Positions 2 to 20,916 of a stretch of DNA of 27,643 nucleotides are shown piece by piece; positions within the stretch are counted from its first letter, which is position 1, and each line of letters begins with the position of its first letter. Below the pieces are notes generated by a model. The model was not told the DNA's origin. It made no database searches and worked only from the letters and a program-made list of their open reading frames with translations. This stretch comes from a virus: positions 1-27,643 of the IMG/VR virus record IMGVR_UViG_3300032322_000898. One strand, 5' to 3'. The position numbers were made by a program, and so were the translations under genes.

Positions 2-3000
2 TTAGGTTCGCGGGTAGGTAGTTTCTTTGGGCCAGTCGGAACTGCGGCGGGTACAGGGCTTGGCGCATTGACCGGCCAATTTTTATCTTCGTATGTCCCA
101 ACAGCCGGGGCAAACTTGGAAGCGCAAGCTCGCGCTCAGATAGCCGAGGGCAAGCCCGTTGATGTAAACCCGCTAGCTGCGTATGGAGCAGCTATCCCCG
201 GTGCGGCGCTGGATGTTTTCACGGATCGGCTGTTGCTTGGCAAGGGTGTGGTTGGCCGCTTGATGGGCTTCACCGATGCGCAAGTCGCTAAGAAGTCTGC
301 GCAAGAACTAGAGAAGCTGGCATCAGAAAAGCTGCTACCCAAGCTAAGCAGGGGCGAAGTAAGCGCCGGCACACTACTCAAGGGCACGGCCAAGGGTACG
401 GTTGAGATACCTACTGAGATTGCACAGCAGATGCTTGAGCGTGCGCAGGCCGGCCTGCCACTAACTAATGACGAAGCGTTGGCTGATTATGGGAACGCTG
501 CATATCAAGCCGGGTTGTTGTCCCCGTTGGGTGGCATAGGTCGGATTAGTGAGCGCAGCGGCGCGCGCGCCGAGATTGCGCAGCGTAAGAAACAGGCAGC
601 AGACGCTGCGTTTGCTGCACAGGAAGCTGCGGCTACCCAGCCCGAGAACCTACTCAAGCTGTTCGATCACTACACCGCAGCCAAGGCAGAAGGGGATCGA
701 TTAGAAGCGGAACGGCTGCGCGTAGAAGCCACCAAACCACCGGGCAAAAACAAAAAGACCGACGAGTATAAGCAGTGGAAAGAAACGCTTGCCGGCGCGG
801 AAGAAGCTCAGAACGACCACTTAACGGACATCCTTAAACCTGCGCGGGCTGCGTATTTAGCCCGCGAAGAACTGATCAAACCGCTGGTTGCCCAGCGTCA
901 AGCAGCGCAGCCTCCGGCTGCACCTGCACCTACAATTGTGCCCCCGACTGTTACGCAGTTGATGGATCAGTACGATGATTTGTACCAGCAACGTGATGAG
1001 ATCGGTGCGCAAATTCGCGCGGCTGCGGCTACTGGCGATCCGGCGGTAATCAACCCACTACATGATCAGTGGACAGCGCTGACTAAGTATATCGACCAGA
1101 CAGGCAAGGCTGTTGAGGGTGCGGGCGGTACAATCGAAACCGCTCCTGCTCTGGACAAGCAGATCGCCACGTTAAACGAACAGGTTGCCAAGATTCAAGC
1201 AGGCATAGTCAAAGCTGCTGAAGTTGGTGATTTTGATGCCGTGCGCAAACAGACTGGAACAAAAGCCGCACTGATAAAAGATCTGAACGCCGTTCAAGAG
1301 AAGCGTGCACTTGTCGAGGGCCGGCCTTCCCGCACTCCGGTTGCTGAACAGCCTGAAGTAGCTCCGTTCACAATGCCGCCCACAACAGAAATGCCTGCGG
1401 CTGAAGAGCTTGCGCCTAAAGAAGCGCCGCCGCCATCGATCACGCCGTACGATTTCCCTACGCCCTATGAGATGTTTGGGGCTAGGTCTGTTGCTGATCT
1501 GAATGCGCCGTTTGATCTCCCCACACCGATGGAGATGTTTGGGGATGTGGATCTGGACCGCGCCACGAAGTTTGTGCGCGATACTGGCAAAGCCAACATC
1601 ACGCATCTTGAACAGGGGCTTAACGTCAAACGCCAAGTCGCAGCGCAACTGCTGATGGACTTGGAAAAAGCCGGCATAGTCACGCCACTAAAAGGCAACA
1701 AGCGCGAAGTCATTAAGGAAACGCCCACTACGCCTGCTGCTGAAGCGCCTGCTGCTGAAGCACCCAAGGCGGAAACCAAGCCTACTGAAACCCCGCCTGC
1801 CGGCCCAGTCCAACACGCGATTGAAGACGTACCTCCGGTTTGGTTGCCAGTCAATGAACTCAAGCTATCTAAGGATGTGCCGCAGTTCAAAGAGGGTGCG
1901 GACCAAGAAGGGGTTGTCAAGCCGCTCAAAGGCGAGTTTGCAAAATATGCGGTTGCACCGATCCAAGTGTGGCGCCGCCTCGATGGCAGCTTAGAGATTA
2001 TCTCTGGGCGGCACCGTTGGGATCTGGCTAAGCGCTCGGGCAGGCAGACAATTGCTGCACAGATTTTTGATGAATCTGCCGGGTTCGATAAAAAGCAAGC
2101 AGCAACGATGGATGCGGAGATCAATATCCGCGACGATCAGGGGACCGTGTCTGACTACGTCAACTACTTTCAAGGCGCGCAGCTTTCAAAAGAAGAGGCC
2201 AATGCTCGGGGGTTGACGCGCGGCAAAGGTGAAGAAGCTATCGAGATCGCCACGAACGGTAGCCCAGAACTGATCGCTGCCCACCGCGCTAAGCAAGTCA
2301 GTGACAGTCTTGCGGCGTCCATAGCAACCGAAGCGCCAAAAGATTCAAGAATCCAAGCGGTCGCAATCAAAGCCGCCCAGAATAAATCTGCTGCCGAAGC
2401 GCTCAACCTAATGCGCGCGGTCCAAGTAATAGCGCCCAAACCCGCTGAAGGCGGCATGGCTGACATGTTTGGGTTTGATGAGAGCGCCATGCTCGAAGCC
2501 CAAGAGATGGCCAAGATCGCTACGCAAAAGCAGCGTGAGGTTGATCAGCGGCTAGGTGCTATCACGGGCGCTAGCAAAAACCCCAAGCTTGCCGCCGCCG
2601 AAGGTATTGACATCAAAGACCCAGAAGCGGTCAAGCGCCGGATTGCCGATCTGCGGCAACTCAAGGCATCGTGGAATAGATGGACAACCGACCCAACACT
2701 AGTTGGCGAAGTCCGCGAAGCAATGAAGCCTGCCGAGGCTGCTGAACAACCGCAGGGTAAGAAAGAAACCAAAGCCGAGACGCCTGCCGAAGGCACCTTG
2801 GCGCAGGATGCGCAAGACGAGTCAGACGACCAAGGCGCGATGTTCTCACTTGGGACCACCGACAAGCAAAAGAACGACGCTAAACTAGTTGCCGATACTT
2901 TTACTGGCGCAGTTGTTTGGCAAGAAGGAGATCTTTCGCTTGTCCGTGCATACCATAAATCTACGGGACAGCCTGTTTACATTCCGGCAAAAAAGAACAG

Positions 3001-6000
3001 GTACGTAAATAGAGACGTAAACAATGACTACGTTCAGTTTCGTAGCACTTTTACTACGCAGGAAATAGATAGACTGCGCCAGATCAAAAACGATCTGGAA
3101 ACTGCAGATGCAAAGAAGCATGCAAAAAACCCATTCATAAAACATAATGCAAACGGGCTGGCGTTTTCTAAAAACGTGCCGGCAGAAATCCGCAGTGTTG
3201 TTGAAGGATGGAAAAAAATACTTGGCCTTGATACTCGTATATACGTAACCACTGTTGCGGAGGCTCGGGCTAACAGCGACAAGTTTACGGGTCCGCATCG
3301 TGCTGTTGGTTCCGCAGGACTTAGGCAAGGGGAACGCGGATCAGCGCGGTACATGACTGATGACGACAGCTACTACATTACGTATACGCCATCTACCAGC
3401 AAAACTGCTGAGTTGGAGCTTATTGCCCATGAGCTTGGGCACGTACAAGAAAAGCATGTTTTCAAAAAGGCACCAGCAGAAACGCAAGCTGCGATCAAGG
3501 CCGACTTTGATAAGTGGTTGGCATCAACTAAAGGCAAGACTGCGCGCGAACACATAAACAGCATGCGCGCCAAGACTTTGGCCAAGGGTACAAAAGTTCC
3601 ACAGGGGTTGATGTCCGAACAAATCGCGGATAGTTATTGGCGTTCATTTGGTGAGTGGTACGCAGATCAAGTTTCGCGCTGGTCTACAACCACGGATAAG
3701 CCGTTGACGGTTGTTGAGAAGTTCTTCGCCAAGCTGGGCGCGGCGATGCGCCGGTTCTATACGAACGCGATGCAGCAGAAGTATCTGCCTGCACAGTCCA
3801 TGCAGAAGTTCCTCGACGGCATCGCTAAAACTGCAAAAAATAATGGCAGCATAGCGCCAAACGCCGTGGATGCGGCAATAAGTATTAAGGAGCAAAAACC
3901 AAGTCCAGAAAAAACATTCACTGGTCAAGGTTCTTTGTTCCGCTCCCAAGGTGAGCAAGCCGCCGGGATGCCAACCGCAGAAATTGAAGATCTGATCAAG
4001 CCGTTCCGTCAATTGCCGGTGGCGCCCAAGATCACGGTGGTTCAGTCTATCTCTGAATTGCCCGAAAAGATTCAAGCGCAGATGGAGCGCGACGGTACGC
4101 AGAGCGCGCCGGGTATGTTCCACCCACCAACCGAGACGATCTACTTGGTGGGCGACAACCTGATTGATGGCGCGGACGTAGGCAAGACGATCTCCCACGA
4201 AATGGTTGGCCACTTCGGTCTGCGTGGGGTGCTTGGCAATTCGTACCCGGCAGTGATGCGCTCGATCTACCAGAACAACAAGCAGATCAAGGCAGAGGCT
4301 AACGCCCGGATGCAGGACAACCCCGATATGTCGCTGGAAGTGGCGACCGAGGAGAGCATCGCTGAGCGCGCCGAGAAGGATGTGTCGCTGACTTGGATGA
4401 ACCGCTTGGTAAACCTAATCCGCACCAAGCTGCGGCAGTGGGGCATCTGGAAGAACGCACCAATCGGTGACTCCGAGATCATCCGTCTGATCCGCGACTC
4501 GCACAAGTATGTGAGCGGTGTGACCACCAAGCCAAGCGAGACGGTGAAGGCGTTGGCGCAGGTTGCACCTTCCGGTAAAGAAACAGCCAAGGAAGGCGAT
4601 GTCCTCTACCGCTCACGCAAACCCACTAAGTCTGTCGTTGCCCAGCGCACCAGCACTGCCGATGATTTGATGGCGCTCTACACGGGGCTGACCGGCGCGA
4701 GTAGCCGGGACGCTACGATGGCTGGGTTGAAAGACAAGACCAATACGAAGGCGCTGAAGCTGCGTCAGCGTGTGTTTGATCAATACGCTTCATTGGTTGC
4801 GGCGGTTACTAAGGGTGTGGATGCTGGGAAGCTTGATGCGTTCCGCGCTCAGAATCTGATGTACTTCCTACGCTTTGGTCAGCAGCGCAGCGATATTGTT
4901 GGGCAGACAGTTACCAGCGGACCTCCGCGTGTCCGAAGCGAAAAGACCAGCGCCGGCACGGAATACTTCTACGAGAATGATGCGGGCGGACCAACGCTAG
5001 TTGGCATGGCGCAGGCGCTAGAAAAAGCCAAGGGCTACAAAGAAGAAGACCGCGAGAACGCATTTACTGTTTACCTAGCCGGCAAGCGTGCTGAACAAGT
5101 TGGTTGGAACAAACTACGCTTCGATAATCCAGTCGAAGCCGAGAACGAATACAAGGAAGTTCTTGCGCACCTGAAGCAGAACCCTGCTGACAAGGCTGCA
5201 TTTGAAGCAGCCGAGAAGATCTATCAAAACTACAACGCTGGACTGCTGGACTTCTTGGTTCAGACCGGCGCTATGTCCAAACAGAAAGCGGCGGAACTCA
5301 AGAGCATCACCTACGTACCGTTCTATCGCGTAGACAAGGAAGGCAACATCCGCATGGAGACGGGTGACGAGCGCCGCTCGATTCGTATCGGCAACATCAA
5401 GAGCGAACCTCGCCTGAAAGAATTGCTTGGCGACAGCGAACAAATCCTGCCGGTGTTTACGAGTGCTGTACAAAACACCAGTATGCTGATCAACATGGCG
5501 ATGCGCAATCAGACCGTTAAAGACACGGCGTTTGTGCTCAAGGATCTAGGGATTGCCAGTCGGATCGTAGCGTCCAAGGGACCGTATACGGACAATGTGG
5601 TTCACTTCCGGGTGAATGGCGTGGAGCATCACGCCATCATTGATACAGACATGTACGGTATCCCGGCGCAGATGATTGTTGAGGGGCTGGAAGGTATCAA
5701 GGTTGCGATGCCCACGATTGTGCGCATGCTGGGTGTGCCGGGAGATATCTTCCGCAAGTTTACGGTTCGCAATCCGCTCTACATATTCCGCCAGCTTGTA
5801 CGCGATCCTGTCTCGGCGTGGGTGCAAACCGGTACCAGCACGGTCCCGATCCTCGATTCGTTCTCTACGCTGGCTAAAATGGCCACCGGCAACGACACCA
5901 CAGCGCAGCGGCTTCAGCGTGCAGGTGCAACCAGCAGCAATGTCCTAGTGGGCGACGCCCGCGACATGACCAAGTTCTTGGAAGATCTCACCGCCGGCAA

Positions 6001-7237
6001 GTGGAGTCTGCAACGGGCGTTCTCTAAGCTCGACACCGTTGCCCAGCAGTCCGATGCGGCTACCCGGCAGGTGATCTACGAAGACTCAATCAAGAAGGGG
6101 ATGTCCCACCAGCAGGCGCTGATGCGCACGCTTGAGTCGATGAACTTTAGCCGCCGGGGCACGTCGCCCAGTATGTATTTGCTGGCAAGTCTGACGCCGT
6201 TTATGCACTCGCAGGTTCAAGGTCTGGACGTTCTGTATCGCTCAATGCGCGGGCAGTTGCCGGGTACCGACAAACTTCAGGTTGCTCAACGGTTCGCAGC
6301 GCGGGCTACGATGTTGGCTGTGTCGTCTCTTGCGTATGCAGCAGTCATGCAGGACGATGAGGATTATAAGCGCGCTAAGCCAGAAGAGCGCTACGGTTAC
6401 TGGTGGGTGCCAACGCTGGGCCTGACCAAAGAGAACTGGTTGAAAATCCCCATCCCATATGAGGTTGGCTTCCTATTCAAAGCGCTGCCGGAAGCGATGG
6501 TCAACACGGCGTTTGGTGATGAGAAAGCCAAGCCCGCACTAAGCGCACTCTGGAAAGCTTTGGGGCAGTCGGTGCCGCTTGATATCCCTCAAGCGCTCAA
6601 ACCCGCACTTGAAGTGCGCCTCGGTTCTTCGCTTTTTTCTGGGGACATCGAGTCGTCACGCGAAAAAGAAATCCTGCCGCAGTATCGCTACCGCACCAAC
6701 AGTACAGAGATTGCCAAAATGCTTGGTGGTGCAGGCGGACTATCACCAATCCAGATCGATTACTTGATCCGAGGGTACACTGGTGGTGTGGGTATGGCCA
6801 TCGCTCAGATGGCTAACGTGTTCTTGCGTGCGCCCGAAGCTGCGAACGTACAGCAGCCAACTATGAAGCTTTCAGAAGTCCCACTCATTGGGTCGCTCTT
6901 CCAAACGACCGAGGGACGCGGCGCGCTCGATGCCACGTACAATCTCATCGAAGAGATCCAACAGTACAAGGGCGCGTACAACAAACTTATTCAGGACGGC
7001 AAACCCGAGGAAGCCGCTAGATTTGCCAACGAAAATGCTTCGGTCTTGGCCGCATCGAGCATGGCCGGCTACATGAAGAAGACTCTGGGTGAGATGTCCA
7101 AGCAGGCGCGCATAATCAAGTCCGATCCAAAGATGACCACGGAACAAAAGGATGCGGCGCTAGAGAATCTGTACATCTCTCAGCTTGCGCTGTCGCGTAA
7201 CTTCCTTAAAAACGCCGAAAGAACCACACTCCGATAA
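2..7237 (+). CDS. Large polyvalent virion protein (partial at 5' end): ParB-like, two zincin peptidases, C-terminal LPD38-like region
   Basis: The frame is open from base 2, so the true start lies upstream; more than 2,400 residues are visible. Alanine-rich, coiled-coil-like segments (about 560-1320) and Pro/Ala/Glu linkers come first. A ParB/Srx-like nuclease domain follows at about 1835-2120, with the motif ISGRHRW near 1997-2020. A zincin motif HELGH starts at 3428 and a second, HEMVGH, at 4196. From about 4690 to 6900 is a long helical region with NPLYIFRQLVRDPVSAW near 5770, which I recognise as large polyvalent protein-associated type (LPD38-like). Short FSLG, LFRSQ and LYRSR linkers near 2840, 3930 and 4600 separate the blocks and could be processing sites (inference). 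Such proteins are known as giant multi-domain phage products thought to be packaged and injected with DNA. The gene converges on the minus-strand replication block. The general class is secure; the activity of each domain is not. Confidence 0.85.
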   Translation, partial: LGSRVGSFFGPVGTAAGTGLGALTGQFLSSYVPTAGANLEAQARAQIAEGKPVDVNPLAAYGAAIPGAALDVFTDRLLLGKGVVGRLMGFTDAQVAKKSAQELEKLASEKLLPKLSRGEVSAGTLLKGTAKGTVEIPTEIAQQMLERAQAGLPLTNDEALADYGNAAYQAGLLSPLGGIGRISERSGARAEIAQRKKQAADAAFAAQEAAATQPENLLKLFDHYTAAKAEGDRLEAERLRVEATKPPGKNKKTDEYKQWKETLAGAEEAQNDHLTDILKPARAAYLAREELIKPLVAQRQAAQPPAAPAPTIVPPTVTQLMDQYDDLYQQRDEIGAQIRAAAATGDPAVINPLHDQWTALTKYIDQTGKAVEGAGGTIETAPALDKQIATLNEQVAKIQAGIVKAAEVGDFDAVRKQTGTKAALIKDLNAVQEKRALVEGRPSRTPVAEQPEVAPFTMPPTTEMPAAEELAPKEAPPPSITPYDFPTPYEMFGARSVADLNAPFDLPTPMEMFGDVDLDRATKFVRDTGKANITHLEQGLNVKRQVAAQLLMDLEKAGIVTPLKGNKREVIKETPTTPAAEAPAAEAPKAETKPTETPPAGPVQHAIEDVPPVWLPVNELKLSKDVPQFKEGADQEGVVKPLKGEFAKYAVAPIQVWRRLDGSLEIISGRHRWDLAKRSGRQTIAAQIFDESAGFDKKQAATMDAEINIRDDQGTVSDYVNYFQGAQLSKEEANARGLTRGKGEEAIEIATNGSPELIAAHRAKQVSDSLAASIATEAPKDSRIQAVAIKAAQNKSAAEALNLMRAVQVIAPKPAEGGMADMFGFDESAMLEAQEMAKIATQKQREVDQRLGAITGASKNPKLAAAEGIDIKDPEAVKRRIADLRQLKASWNRWTTDPTLVGEVREAMKPAEAAEQPQGKKETKAETPAEGTLAQDAQDESDDQGAMFSLGTTDKQKNDAKLVADTFTGAVVWQEGDLSLVRAYHKSTGQPVYIPAKKNRYVNRDVNNDYVQFRSTFTTQEIDRLRQIKNDLETADAKKHAKNPFIKHNANGLAFSKNVPAEIRSVVEGWKKILGLDTRIYVTTVAEARANSDKFTGPHRAVGSAGLRQGERGSARYMTDDDSYYITYTPSTSKTAELELIAHELGHVQEKHVFKKAPAETQAAIKADFDKWLASTKGKTAREHINSMRAKTLAKGTKVPQGLMSEQIADSYWRSFGEWYADQVSRWSTTTDKPLTVVEKFFAKLGAAMRRFYTNAMQQKYLPAQSMQKFLDGIAKTAKNNGSIAPNAVDAAISIKEQKPSPEKTFTGQGSLFRSQGEQAAGMPTAEIEDLIKPFRQLPVAPKITVVQSISELPEKIQAQMERDGTQSAPGMFHPPTETIYLVGDNLIDGADVGKTISHEMVGHFGLRGVLGNSYPAVMRSIYQNNKQIKAEANARMQDNPDMSLEVATEESIAERAEKDVSLTWMNRLVNLIRTKLRQWGIWKNAPIGDSEIIRLIRDSHKYVSGVTTKPSETVKALAQVAPSGKETAKEGDVLYRSRKPTKSVVAQRTSTADDLMALYTGLTGASSRDATMAGLKDKTNTKALKLRQRVFDQYASLVAAVTKGVDAGKLDAFRAQNLMYFLRFGQQRSDIVGQTVTSGPPRVRSEKTSAGTEYFYENDAGGPTLVGMAQALEKAKGYKEEDRENAFTVYLAGKRAEQVGWNKLRFDNPVEAENEYKEVLAHLKQNPADKAAFEAAEKIYQNYNAGLLDFLVQTGAMSKQKAAELKSITYVPFYRVDKEGNIRMETGDERRSIRIGNIKSEPRLKELLGDSEQILPVFTSAVQNTSMLINMAMRNQTVKDTAFVLKDLGIASRIVASKGPYTDNVVHFRVNGVEHHAIIDTDMYGIPAQMIVEGLEGIKVAMPTIVRMLGVPGDIFRKFTVRNPLYIFRQLVRDPVSAWVQTGTSTVPILDSFSTLAKMATGNDTTAQRLQRAGATSSNVLVGDARDMTKFLEDLTAGKWSLQRAFSKLDTVAQQSDAATRQVIYEDSIKKGMSHQQALMRTLESMNFSRRGTSPSMYLLASLTPFMHSQVQGLDVLYRSMRGQLPGTDKLQVAQRFAARATMLAVSSLAYAAVMQDDEDYKRAKPEERYGYWWVPTLGLTKENWLKIPIPYEVGFLFKALPEAMVNTAFGDEKAKPALSALWKALGQSVPLDIPQALKPALEVRLGSSLFSGDIESSREKEILPQYRYRTNSTEIAKMLGGAGGLSPIQIDYLIRGYTGGVGMAIAQMANVFLRAPEAANVQQPTMKLSEVPLIGSLFQTTEGRGALDATYNLIEEIQQYKGAYNKLIQDGKPEEAARFANENASVLAASSMAGYMKKTLGEMSKQARIIKSDPKMTTEQKDAALENLYISQLALSRNFLKNAERTTLR

Positions 7238-17422: not shown

Positions 17423-18094
17423 TCAGTGTTTAGGGTTAAATTCACAAGACGTAACAACACACCACGGGCAGAGCGGCGTCTGCCGTGGATTCCACACATC
17501 GTTCTCAAACGCTGCTTCAAGGCGAGCAACCCGCTCGCGGTACTCCCACCACGCCTTCTCAGCTTCACCGCGCTCCATCGACATCGTGACCATGTCGTTC
17601 TTCACAACAAACAACAGCGCCGACTTCACTTGGCGGATATGCGGGAAGTGAATGAACACCATCAGCGACATCAACTTTAGCTGGTCAGTGTCCGGGTAGC
17701 GGTTATTCCCAGTCTTATAGTCAGCTACCCACGCAGTCAGATCGTCATCGTCCACGATCAAAAGGTCCGCAATCCCGCGTGCCCACATATTGTCCGCAGC
17801 CCATGCGCAGGGTTTGAGGTCGCTAGTCACCGCCATCTGGTACTCGGTCAGCTTGCGTCCGTTCTTTGATATCAGCGCATCGAGCACAGGCTGAACAAAC
17901 TCAAACTGCGCCGGCAACGGCGTGCCATGCGCCACATAAAACTCGGCTGCGGTGTGTAGTTCCTTGCCGTATAGGGTGGCCTGCGTGTCCGTGAACGGGT
18001 AGTTCTTGAGTACTTTGACCTCATGGTAGCGGCGCGCGCAGCCCTCGAAATCTTTGAGGCTGGAGTGACTCCACGTAACTTTCTTTTCAATCAT
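17423..18094 (-). CDS. PD-(D/E)XK exonuclease, Cas4/RecB-like, with probable 4Fe-4S cysteines
   Basis: A 223-residue nuclease. The catalytic core is visible as H47 (LHTAAEFY), D110 (RGIADLLIV), D125 and K127 (VADYKTG) and Q138 (DTDQLKLMS), the order of RecB-family PD-(D/E)XK exonucleases. One cysteine near the N-terminus (C19, in FEGCARRYH) and three near the C-terminus (C209, C212, C217, in CPWCVVTSC) reproduce the pattern that holds a 4Fe-4S cluster in Cas4 and AddB. It probably trims DNA ends during phage recombination or replication. It follows the polymerase with an ATGA junction, so the two are co-translated. No Cas1 or Cas2 is nearby, so a CRISPR role is not supported. Confidence 0.88.
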   Translation of the reverse strand: MIEKKVTWSHSSLKDFEGCARRYHEVKVLKNYPFTDTQATLYGKELHTAAEFYVAHGTPLPAQFEFVQPVLDALISKNGRKLTEYQMAVTSDLKPCAWAADNMWARGIADLLIVDDDDLTAWVADYKTGNNRYPDTDQLKLMSLMVFIHFPHIRQVKSALLFVVKNDMVTMSMERGEAEKAWWEYRERVARLEAAFENDVWNPRQTPLCPWCVVTSCEFNPKH

Positions 18095-20916
18095 TGCTTG
18101 GCATCCCCGTAACGTAAGTTCGTACCGCCATCAGCAGCCAGAGGTATCCCCGGCATGTAAGACGGCTCCATTGTCATCTGCTCAATCACCCAGTCGAGTG
18201 CCTCTTGAGCTTCATCCTCGGGCGCCAGCGCGATCAATTCATCGTGCACAGTCCCCACCACAGGGTAGCGTCTAGATACGCGCAGCATGCCGTCTGTCAT
18301 CACGATCCGCGCGAGTGCTTGGGTGATGTTGTTGGTGATCTTCCCGGCGTAAAGCTTCGTCGCATCCTTGCCGTACACCCAGTTGCCGTCTTCGTCTTTG
18401 CGCAGGTTGGGGTAGCGGATCTTCATGCCGTTAGGTAGCTCGATCTCGCCCTTGCGGAAGGTCAGGCATTTGTATGTGTACTCTTTACCCTCCACTAGGC
18501 AGTCCACCATCAGCTTCGTACACAGCGCCCACAGGCCAACAACCGGGTAGGCCGTCTGTCTGTAGATGTCAATAATTTGCTTGGCGGCAACCGCATGAAT
18601 AGCTAACTCTTCAAGCGTGCAGGTGTGTGGAATGTCCAGCAGGCGAGCCTCGGTCTCGCGCCACTCGAAGAATTTTTTAGCTAGTGCCTTGTTGACCCCA
18701 AGTTGCTTGGCAAAATTTGCTTGATACCGGATCGGCGGCGCCCCGAGGAACCCCACCATTAATTGGGACGCGAATGACGCCCACCCGAGGCCGTACCCAC
18801 AGTTGTGCACGATGAGCGGGCCTGCGTCAGTCAGGATTGTGTAGCGATTCCTCGGCCCTGCGAAGGCGATGTCGTAGGTCTGCATTCTCTGCTTCGAGGG
18901 CAATGATGCGCTGCTTGAGTTCTTCAAACCCTCTTGCAGATAAGCGCCGCTTGTTGGACATGTTGACGCTGCGCGTAACAAACCGAAGGTTGCCGGGTTC
19001 GTAGCCTTTGCTGTTGTCTGTCCGATCAAGCTGTAACTCGGGAACATCCCAGCCATCAAGGGAGACAAGGTATCGAAGAAACTCGACACGATTCTCAATC
19101 CACGGCGCATATACCGTAATGCCGCGCCCACCATAGTCTGGATAGACCGAGCTATTTGGGTTTGTGCAGCGGACAATGATTGCGCTAATCCTGTCGAGAA
19201 GCCGGTCGCGATGGTCGCGGTCTGGGCAAATTGCGTAATACCCTTGCCGTTCCCAACGTGTTTCGATGGACTTCCGTTTTGCACATCGGTCGCATCGCGT
19301 ACTCCTTCCGTGCCGAATGTTGTCTCGGTTAACGAAACCTTCCCATCCGCAAGAACAGCGCATGATTGGTTGGAAATTTTTACCTCTGTGCTCCCACCCC
19401 ATGCAGGTGAGTTCCCCAATGACAGCGCCGACTTCAAAAGGGAAGGGTTTGCTAGGACCGCGCACCACTCCGCCCATCCATGTTCCGTCAGAATTTCGTG
19501 GTCCGAAGTTGCGCTGATCCCCAGCGCTGTCAGCACTTCCTTCTCGCCCTGCGGTACTACTCCCTGATGACATACCCACTCCTCTCCATCCCAGACCGTA
19601 TCCGTAGCCTGTACCCTTACTATAGGCACCCACCCGCGATTCGTCAAGACCGAAGTGTCCGGACCAAAACATCCCAACAAAGCGGACTTTGCCGACTGCC
19701 TTAATTCTGGGTTTGATTCCTTAGTCATGCCGGGTATGTTGAACATCTGCGCACCAAACGCTGCGTATGGGTCCGCGCCTGAACGGAAGATGTCCAGCAT
19801 ATCCTCGTAGTCCGAGAGCCAAGCGAGCACGCGCGGCTCGATCTGGGATAGGTCGCCCACCACTATCGTGTGGCCCATCGGCGCTAGTATCGCCTTGCGT
19901 AGGAAACTCCCACGCTTTAGGTTCTGCATGTTGATCGCACTGCCCTTGCTTGCAGTCCAGCGTCCCGTAGTGGCGCCGTAATAGCTCAGCGGTACAGGTA
20001 ATGCACCCCGCTTACTAATGTCTAGGAACCGCTGCGCACGGGTGCGCTCGGTCGTGCTCTTCACCTTCAGCCTAGCCTCGCAGAGCAGCGCCGCTGCTTC
20101 GTTCTCACCGTTCATGATGGCAAGGAACATGGCGTCGTTCTTGGCCAGTGCTAGCGTCTCCTCACCCGTGGTCTTGCTGATTTTTCTAGGCGCGGGTACG
20201 CCAACAGCTTCGAGTAGCGCAGCAAACTTCGGGTTGGATGCCAGATCAGCGTCTGTGATGCCGAGGTTAATCAGTAGTGCTTCGCGCTGCGCGCGCTCCT
20301 CATCGATGGCCTTGGCCAGCATCGTCCCGTCGAGAATTAAGCGCGGCTGTGTGTACATCCGCAGCGTCAGATCAATTAAGCGTAGTTCCTTGGATGGGTA
20401 TCCGGCAGATAGCCGTACAAAAATCTCTTCGCACAGCATCACATCATGCGCGCAGTACTCGGCTAACTCTGCCTCGATCTCGGGCGTTAGTTCCTCGAGT
20501 CCGTCTGTGTTGTGTACCGCGTTGCCCTTGGGCGGCAGATCAAATTCCTGAGCTAGCAGTGCCAACGAGTTTCCTTGCTCGACTCCACGTAGGGCGCGGG
20601 CCATGCTGAGCGTGTCCAGAATAAAACATGGGTGACAGTCGTACTTCCACTCAAGTATTGATACGTCGAACTGGGCGTTGTGCGCAAGGATTGCTGTCTG
20701 AGTCCAGTCGTACTGCATGAGCGCGTCATGCAAGTCTTCGCCGTTGTACCAGCGCGGGGGTTCGTCCGATCCATACTCATGCAGGCAAGCACCGAAAGCT
20801 TTAAACCTTGGGTCGCGAATGTATTCCTCCGTTGTCATCTTGGACAACGTATAGTCTGCTTTAGACCAGCGCGTCTCGAAGTCAATGGTGACTATTTGTT
20901 TGAAGGGTTTGGTCAT
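18091..20916 (-). CDS. Family A DNA polymerase (3'-5' exonuclease + polymerase) containing an intein
   Basis: A 941-residue precursor; removing the intein leaves about 651. Exonuclease motifs are IDFET (D12, E14), AHNAQFDVS (N80, D84) and YCAHD (Y154, D158), i.e. the DEDDy type. There is no 5'-3' exonuclease domain. Polymerase motifs are SYYGATTGRW (311-320), motif A DLSQIEPRVLAW (355-366), O-helix RQSAKSALLG (406-415) continuing after the intein as CGYGLGW (706-712), and motif C VHDELI (890-895). The intein interrupts the O-helix. All catalytic residues are present, so the spliced enzyme should be the phage replicase. The ATG at 20916 follows a 6-bp gap after the upstream gene with only a weak GGA leader; the exonuclease gene follows with an ATGA overlap. 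Confidence 0.92.
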   Translation of the reverse strand: MTKPFKQIVTIDFETRWSKADYTLSKMTTEEYIRDPRFKAFGACLHEYGSDEPPRWYNGEDLHDALMQYDWTQTAILAHNAQFDVSILEWKYDCHPCFILDTLSMARALRGVEQGNSLALLAQEFDLPPKGNAVHNTDGLEELTPEIEAELAEYCAHDVMLCEEIFVRLSAGYPSKELRLIDLTLRMYTQPRLILDGTMLAKAIDEERAQREALLINLGITDADLASNPKFAALLEAVGVPAPRKISKTTGEETLALAKNDAMFLAIMNGENEAAALLCEARLKVKSTTERTRAQRFLDISKRGALPVPLSYYGATTGRWTASKGSAINMQNLKRGSFLRKAILAPMGHTIVVGDLSQIEPRVLAWLSDYEDMLDIFRSGADPYAAFGAQMFNIPGMTKESNPELRQSAKSALLGCFGPDTSVLTNRGWVPIVRVQATDTVWDGEEWVCHQGVVPQGEKEVLTALGISATSDHEILTEHGWAEWCAVLANPSLLKSALSLGNSPAWGGSTEVKISNQSCAVLADGKVSLTETTFGTEGVRDATDVQNGSPSKHVGNGKGITQFAQTATIATGFSTGLAQSLSAAQTQIARSIQTMVGAALRYMRRGLRIVSSFFDTLSPLMAGMFPSYSLIGQTTAKATNPATFGLLRAASTCPTSGAYLQEGLKNSSSASLPSKQRMQTYDIAFAGPRNRYTILTDAGPLIVHNCGYGLGWASFASQLMVGFLGAPPIRYQANFAKQLGVNKALAKKFFEWRETEARLLDIPHTCTLEELAIHAVAAKQIIDIYRQTAYPVVGLWALCTKLMVDCLVEGKEYTYKCLTFRKGEIELPNGMKIRYPNLRKDEDGNWVYGKDATKLYAGKITNNITQALARIVMTDGMLRVSRRYPVVGTVHDELIALAPEDEAQEALDWVIEQMTMEPSYMPGIPLAADGGTNLRYGDAKQ
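18827..19573 (-). CDS. Nested homing-endonuclease-like protein in an alternate frame of the intein
   Basis: A 248-residue reading frame lies wholly inside the intein DNA, on the same strand but in a different frame. Residue numbers below count from the first ATG at 19672; subtract 33 for the shorter start. A zinc-ribbon-like part has CSCGW (C106, C108) and CDRC (C127, C130). The core has RCTNPNSSVYPDYGGRGITV (169-188), LDRTDN (215-220), GYEPGNLRF (223-231) and Asn237/Asn240. These order-conserved motifs match a phage HNH-like homing endonuclease family that ends in a basic, coiled tail. I choose the ATG at 19573 because AGGAG lies 5 nt upstream; the ATGs at 19672 and 19477 have poor leaders. 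Family known; nesting inferred to be functional. Catalytic residues are not assigned. Confidence 0.8.
   Translation of the reverse strand: MSSGSSTAGREGSADSAGDQRNFGPRNSDGTWMGGVVRGPSKPFPFEVGAVIGELTCMGWEHRGKNFQPIMRCSCGWEGFVNRDNIRHGRSTRCDRCAKRKSIETRWERQGYYAICPDRDHRDRLLDRISAIIVRCTNPNSSVYPDYGGRGITVYAPWIENRVEFLRYLVSLDGWDVPELQLDRTDNSKGYEPGNLRFVTRSVNMSNKRRLSARGFEELKQRIIALEAENADLRHRLRRAEESLHNPD
19571..19587 (-). promoter_or_regulatory. Internal Shine-Dalgarno and start codon for the nested endonuclease
   Basis: On the minus strand GGAGAGGAG (19587-19579) precedes ATG (19573-19571) by 5 nt. In the polymerase frame the same bases encode Gly-Glu-Glu of the intein block A region, so the site is inside a coding sequence. 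It is the best ribosome-binding site in this stretch and would let ribosomes begin the endonuclease on the polymerase message. Confidence 0.6.

Follow-up and report, generated by a model that had tools for sequence, protein, structure and literature searches.

A phage DNA polymerase intein overprinted by a predicted HNH homing endonuclease gene in another reading frame

Inteins are taught as single polypeptides that both splice and home. Where, then, is the homing enzyme of an intein whose own frame holds a predicted disordered linker in the usual place of the endonuclease domain? This question is raised by the family A DNA polymerase gene of IMG/VR virus record IMGVR_UViG_3300032322_000898, in which the whole stretch of DNA analysed (the window) is 27,643 bases long. 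A first-pass annotation of this DNA had placed an intein at 18802-19671 inside a continuous polymerase frame, and a second frame, open across 18827-19672, with a zinc ribbon, the motifs YGGRGI, LDRTDN and GYEPGNLRF, and a stop 25 nucleotides before the intein end. These coordinates and motifs are correct. Our answer is that the locus very probably holds a mobile intein with its homing endonuclease written in another frame. By computation we find two open frames under complementary purifying selection, a conserved internal start with its Shine-Dalgarno sequence, a patchy distribution and co-conversion of flanking DNA. The host gene and intein have the following parts.

18091-20916, minus strand: family A DNA polymerase open reading frame (ORF), 941 amino acids, uninterrupted (Pfam DNA_pol_A 1.6e-19, phrog_17 8.5e-69).
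19672-20916, minus strand: N-terminal extein, family A DNA polymerase (DNA_pol_A 1.6e-19, phrog_17 8.5e-69); intein-free alleles join here.
18802-19671, minus strand: intein, 290 amino acids, with Cys1, block B TxxH and blocks F/G ending in His-Asn, then a +1 Cys.
19408-19671, minus strand: N-terminal half of the predicted HINT splicing fold, intein residues 1-88 (AlphaFold2 predicted local distance difference test, pLDDT, ~95; intein-frame omega 0.10-0.25 over residues 1-72).
18907-19407, minus strand: intein-frame linker, residues 89-255, with disorder predicted (pLDDT ~27) and the HNH core written over it.
18802-18906, minus strand: C-terminal half of the predicted HINT fold, residues 256-290, with blocks F and G (pLDDT ~95; intein omega 0.19 over residues 265-288).
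18091-18801, minus strand: C-terminal extein, DNA polymerase (phrog_7766 5.8e-21).

Judged by its blocks, predicted fold and precise absence from homologues, the inserted protein is an intein of the HINT type, and would be expected to splice. It runs from CFGPDTSVL to GPLIVHN before the +1 Cys (in DNA, CFGPDTSVLTNRGW...ATSDHEILTEHGW...QTYDIAFAGPRNRYTILTDAGPLIVHN, followed by C) and lies between ...LRQSAKSALLG and CGYGLGW of the polymerase, a site that we take to be the O-helix/motif B region. The polymerase frame matches phrog_93 across residues 435-713. Cys1, Thr55, His58, His289 and Asn290 show no variation in 36 sequences. Among relatives with the same frame arrangement (phase +2, defined below), Cys1 is present in 95/95 and His-Asn in 93/94, and the +1 residue is Cys in 92/94 and Ser in 2/94. 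The intein model matches the gp41-1 and DnaB (MsmDnaB) inteins with a Foldseek probability of 1.00 (E about 0.006). Alleles L012-L022 lack precisely the intein and join at the predicted junction, which in the L012 type reads CTGCTTGGG followed by TGTGGG. A nucleotide search of a phage collection with the whole polymerase as query returned no match.

The second frame contains the following.

18827-19573, minus strand: predicted gene for the nested HNH homing endonuclease, 248 amino acids plus stop, in frame +2 with respect to the intein (phrog_374 2.4e-32).
19244-19441, minus strand: zinc-ribbon part of the HNH protein, with Cys73, Cys75, Cys94 and Cys97, none varying in 33 sequences.
18947-19144, minus strand: HNH-type nuclease core, YGGRGI...LDRTDN...GYEPGNLRF...N..N.R (pLDDT mostly >90).
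18839-18937, minus strand: C-terminal helix of the HNH protein (AlphaFold2 helix 213-245), overlapping intein block F in part.

Frame +2 means that the first position of an HNH codon coincides with the third position of an intein codon. On the minus strand this frame is free of stops from 19672 to 18827; the remaining frame has 17 stops across the intein. A family search bears out the endonuclease assignment: residues 81-245 of the nested protein match the phrog_374 HNH endonucleases, and phrog_2081 and phrog_3377, also HNH endonucleases, match as well (2e-32 to 1e-19 for all three). Pfam and NCBIfam named no HNH family for the nested frame, and a Protein Data Bank sequence search with the HNH profile gave nothing useful. 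Asp183, Arg184, Asn195, Arg201, Asn204 and Asn207 of the nuclease core are invariant in the 33 sequences, and the AlphaFold model is mostly above 90 from about residue 46 on. The two predicted structures are complementary and agree with the double-coded layout: a HINT fold with a 167-residue disordered loop from one frame, and a confident zinc-ribbon/HNH fold from the other. Because the HNH is in frame +2, the element is not a canonical large intein with a fused endonuclease domain.

Could one of the two frames be open by chance? Polymerase relatives were taken from viral contigs, with intein-bearing and intein-free alleles both present. In 43/43 loci with both features the HNH has the same phase and the polymerase frame reads through, and a scan with the HNH alone found 78 loci, of which 78/78 have the same phase and an open intein frame, each matching the intein profile; the two sets share some contigs and are not wholly independent, most of the phages are metagenomic contigs, and the loci are related and were gathered by similarity, so these are not independent counts. 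When synonymous codons were permuted with the HNH protein held fixed, the intein frame was expected to carry a mean of 4.4 stops, or 7.5 under the codon usage of the polymerase. The observed number is 0 in 36/36 distinct sequences. Control sequences behave differently: in 51 free-standing members of a related HNH family each alternative frame has two stops or more, against 0 in the intein frame of the 29 intein-nested HNHs in that comparison. A chance ORF is ruled out by the permutation together with these controls. No ORF at any locus examined carries intein and HNH in one frame, and the nested HNH frame is open at all loci examined except L055, where it is truncated. The first-pass annotation had placed the mobility enzyme in an overlapping frame rather than in a fusion, and had staked this on homologues keeping the nested frame intact and under purifying selection; the constant phase, the lack of any same-frame ORF and the selection described next all bear it out.

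To compare the frames, substitutions were counted by their effect (nonsynonymous, N, or synonymous, S) in both, with HNH omega taken as dNN/dSN and intein omega as dNN/dNS. Across the HNH core, close relatives give an HNH omega of 0.17 and the wider set one of 0.10, with intein omega at 0.76-0.87. Over the splicing blocks the relation is reversed: intein omega is about 0.14-0.19 in the N-terminal splicing region (wider set), and HNH omega is about 1 or more upstream of the HNH start. In sliding windows the intein frame is constrained at residues 1-72 and 265-290, and the HNH frame over intein residues ~73-240 (omega 0.04-0.21), where intein omega is near neutral at 0.5-1.3; residues 241-264, under the HNH C-terminal helix, form a transition zone. 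Another set of 15 sequences, more distantly related, repeats the pattern. Constraint on the two frames is tiled: where the HNH core lies, the intein frame is mainly held to the avoidance of stop codons. This is an overprinted gene pair with both frames selected, by complementary purifying selection and stop avoidance. The earlier claim that both proteins constrain the same bases stands in part: beyond stop avoidance, only the Shine-Dalgarno/start region is doubly constrained, possibly joined, though less clearly, by short stretches at the margins near blocks B and F.

The same pattern contradicts a reading in which the linker is itself a functional protein and the HNH likeness a by-product. 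Such a reading would fit a frame that is always open, but the linker's amino acids are near neutral and predicted disordered, and it has no family match of its own while the other frame matches phrog_374. We give it almost no credence. Could the HNH frame instead be a decayed or inactive relic, with a free-standing enzyme elsewhere providing mobility? Related phages do have other HNH genes, and Arg replaces the classical first His of the HNH motif. However, core omega is 0.04-0.2, zinc ligands and nuclease residues are invariant, the frame is open in all nested loci but the truncated L055, and mini-inteins that have lost the HNH lack its core entirely, which makes a relic highly improbable.

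If the out-of-frame gene is expressed, where does its translation begin? The start region comprises two features.

19571-19573, minus strand: predicted HNH start ATG, spanning the intein codons GTA and TGC (Val33-Cys34).
19579-19587, minus strand: Shine-Dalgarno sequence GGAGAGGAG, built from the intein codons Gly-Glu-Glu, 5' of the ATG at 19573.

This ATG falls within the intein motif WDGEEWVC. Of the distinct sequences, 36/36 use GTA for Val33, a codon that makes up only 22% of extein Val codons. In lineages without Cys34, the codon before Trp32 ends in A (47/53), giving an ATG six bases earlier. An ATG with a Shine-Dalgarno of -6 kcal/mol or better is found in the HNH frame of 91/95 phase +2 inteins and in the other alternative frame of 0/95, and, where the HNH is in phase +1, in that frame of 6/23 inteins; these sequences share ancestry, so they are not independent trials. 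The start codon bases occupy wobble positions of the intein, yet they are conserved. From these patterns the nested product most likely starts at 19573 and not at the ATG at 19672. The latter, and ATG or GTG codons at 19477-19465, are less likely because HNH selection is absent before 19573 and the Shine-Dalgarno and ATG at 19573 are conserved. Programmed ribosomal frameshifting out of the intein frame would produce an intein-endonuclease fusion and no separate protein. The frames do overlap, and at several loci the HNH frame is open upstream of the start. Many relatives, however, have HNH-frame stops at intein nucleotides 32-89, just 5' of the conserved ATG, and frameshifting has no need of a strong Shine-Dalgarno and an ATG kept at wobble positions. 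Slippery sites were not searched for systematically; on this evidence frameshifting is very unlikely.

Does the element home? On the polymerase tree the intein requires at least 6 gains or losses, 5 of them forced by well-supported branches, and its presence is patchy among near-identical polymerases. The window polymerase is the sister of the intein-free L012 with full support. Next to the intein lies one further feature.

19672-19716, minus strand: apparent co-conversion tract, the 45 base pairs (bp) of extein immediately 5' of the intein, recoded in comparison with the intein-free sister allele.

This flank is 64% identical to L012, compared with 91-100% elsewhere, and 93% identical to the intein-bearing L004; the flank behaves likewise in the L002/L018 pair. 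By sequence comparison this is a co-conversion signature of homing, on the 5' side only. The patchy presence and the ~45-bp tract argue that the element homes. At the same site, L049, L050 and L051 have HNH-less mini-inteins of 137-158 amino acids, apparent deletion products; the L050 mini-intein has GTC, hence no nested ATG. The L005 intein (L005:6246-7337) has an additional zinc ribbon and a different HNH N-terminus, and is only ~61% identical to that of the window, compared with 93% for the extein, which suggests recombination inside the intein. In L026, which has no intein in its polymerase, the upstream flank shows a partial match to the recoded flank of intein-bearing alleles, possibly through precise intein loss or partial conversion.

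We infer splicing, internal initiation and cleavage from sequence, in the following order. Ribosomes starting at the polymerase ATG would read through to yield polymerase-intein-polymerase, from which the HINT domain (residues 1-88 plus 256-290) would splice out the intein, the ~167-residue disordered loop occupying the usual place of a fused endonuclease domain. Other ribosomes would initiate within the intein at the ATG at 19573, using the Shine-Dalgarno of the Gly-Glu-Glu codons, and yield a separate 248-residue zinc-ribbon/HNH endonuclease in frame +2. This enzyme would cut intein-free polymerase alleles of co-infecting phages, and repair would copy the intein plus a short upstream flank.

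Several points weigh against this mechanism. Foldseek matches of the HNH model are weak, PacI among them (E 0.9), and the motif reads Asp-Arg in place of the Asp-His of classical HNH enzymes; catalysis is assumed from residue conservation. The omegas are simple pairwise counts with Jukes-Cantor correction on related sequences. A start later than 19573 keeps some room because the HNH protein is under weak constraint and lacks structure over its first ~40 residues.

How widespread is the layout? The HNH is likewise nested in phase +2 in Salmonella phage Ent1, EBPR siphovirus 2, Pseudomonas MR14 and Vibrio 97.13, whose linkers match the Ser/Thr-rich ones that the first-pass annotation mentioned for other phage polymerase inteins. 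Its suspicion of an overlooked class has likewise been borne out, with the same layout in many phage and prophage polymerases and an unannotated HNH in Ent1. In bacterial genomes the HNH is nested in 17/19 loci: phase +2 accounts for 7 of these and phase +1, seen mostly in Firmicutes, for 10. Phase +1 polymerase inteins are found in APSE-2, Streptococcus phage Javan101 and Caulobacter phage KcrB. The phase +2 proteins group as a single clade of the HNH tree (SH-like approximate likelihood ratio test 96) and the phase +1 proteins, all but one, adjoin free-standing HNHs, and therefore at least two captures took place. Overall, where an intein of a phage or prophage DNA polymerase carries an HNH, an out-of-frame position is probably the rule: two or more HNH lineages would have been captured independently, in frames +1 and +2, one of them with its ribosome-binding site and start in a conserved intein motif, and such a locus would make a splicing protein and a separate mobility enzyme.

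Some loci combine arrangements. In L036:4888-7428 and L058:8920-11460, a SNF2-like helicase with an overprinted HNH intein (phase +1) adjoins a polymerase with a phase +2 intein; six phase +1 loci akin to that of the helicase (L172-L181) have an HNH omega of about 0.1 and an intein omega of about 1.0. The L128 and L201 polymerases have two inteins each, the first with a phase +2 HNH and the second with a phase +1 HNH. In L055:4935-8662 and L057:4956-8671, the polymerase has an additional intein at a different site, divided between two ORFs that a +1-frame HNH ORF bridges and overlaps, a fractured-gene arrangement; the overprinted phase +2 intein comes after it in the same polymerase. For L068 (Salmonella phage SS3e, NC_006940.2) the annotation gives the polymerase in two pieces that flank an HNH gene; frameshifts in an old sequence are the probable cause of the broken intein frame. 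The L153 polymerase (Taishania pollutisoli scaffold 22) is nearly identical to Salmonella Jerseyvirus polymerases, and is probably phage contamination of the assembly.

Has the arrangement been seen before? Dassa and colleagues reportedly described, in 2009, fractured genes and split inteins with an intervening homing endonuclease. The present locus resembles these in having a separate endonuclease gene between intein halves; unlike them, its intein is continuous. The polymerase inteins of Salmonella Jerseyvirus (for example vB_SenS-Ent1 gp37) have an identical layout in phase +2, although the Ent1 record annotates the intein as splicing domains only and leaves the HNH unannotated. In the Hamiltonella phage APSE-1 (AF157835, NC_000935), P46, a RefSeq HNH endonuclease, is annotated within the P45 DNA polymerase, and the APSE-2 orthologue is an intein with the HNH in phase +1; the records present P45 and P46 merely as two overlapping ORFs. 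Unlike the window, APSE-1 uses frame +1, an HNH of a different clade and another insertion site. Canonical inteins of the PI-SceI type carry an in-frame homing endonuclease domain at the usual insertion site (PMC6801210). The present intein shares with them the HINT domain, Cys1, block B TxxH, C-terminal His-Asn and patchy distribution, and its endonuclease information sits in the usual gap, but the endonuclease would be a separate protein from another frame, outside the intein polypeptide.

The closest published case is the ShiLan domain, a hidden out-of-frame HNH endonuclease in an actinobacteriophage DNA methylase (PMC11855218, 2025). There too the HNH lies in the third frame of an insertion left open in the host-gene frame (phase +2), the distribution is homing-like and the in-frame product is disordered. 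In contrast, ShiLan lacks intein splicing blocks, has another HNH type and has no ribosome-binding site that was found, whereas the present locus has both HINT halves and a conserved Shine-Dalgarno and start. Merging ShiLan, examined in its phage record, with the present class was rejected given its lack of intein blocks and its different kind of HNH. In many distant relatives of the window intein the HNH stop lies 1 nucleotide before the intein end, within the terminal His-Asn codons, and the published TAAC end of ShiLan gp65 (L072) resembles this His-Asn/TAA overlap. Inteins of this kind might count the ShiLan insert among their derived relatives. PMC11855218 cites Gosselin, Arsenault and Gogarten 2025, 'Non-Canonical Architecture', for overlapping frames in actinobacteriophages. 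An endonuclease overprinted in an intein's alternative frame was not described in the full-text literature covered, a scope that did not extend to this 2025 preprint. The parts are known and the arrangement is nearly undocumented in that literature; priority may lie with the preprint.

Splicing and homing would here be two proteins overprinted on each other, with the endonuclease freed from co-folding with the splicing domain. This would explain still-mobile 'mini-inteins' with long, odd linkers, and implies that many annotated 'mini-inteins' or 'splicing-only' phage polymerase inteins, such as those in Salmonella Jerseyvirus records, hide an endonuclease. Gene overprinting can be cheap, since avoiding stops is all that one of the frames has to do. 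These loci, for which intein-free sister alleles and start-codon mutants exist, offer a natural system for the origin and expression of overlapping genes.

Elsewhere in the window, positions 2-7237 hold a 2411-residue ORF, open at the window edge, whose only matches are to phage proteins of unknown function (phrog_18222).

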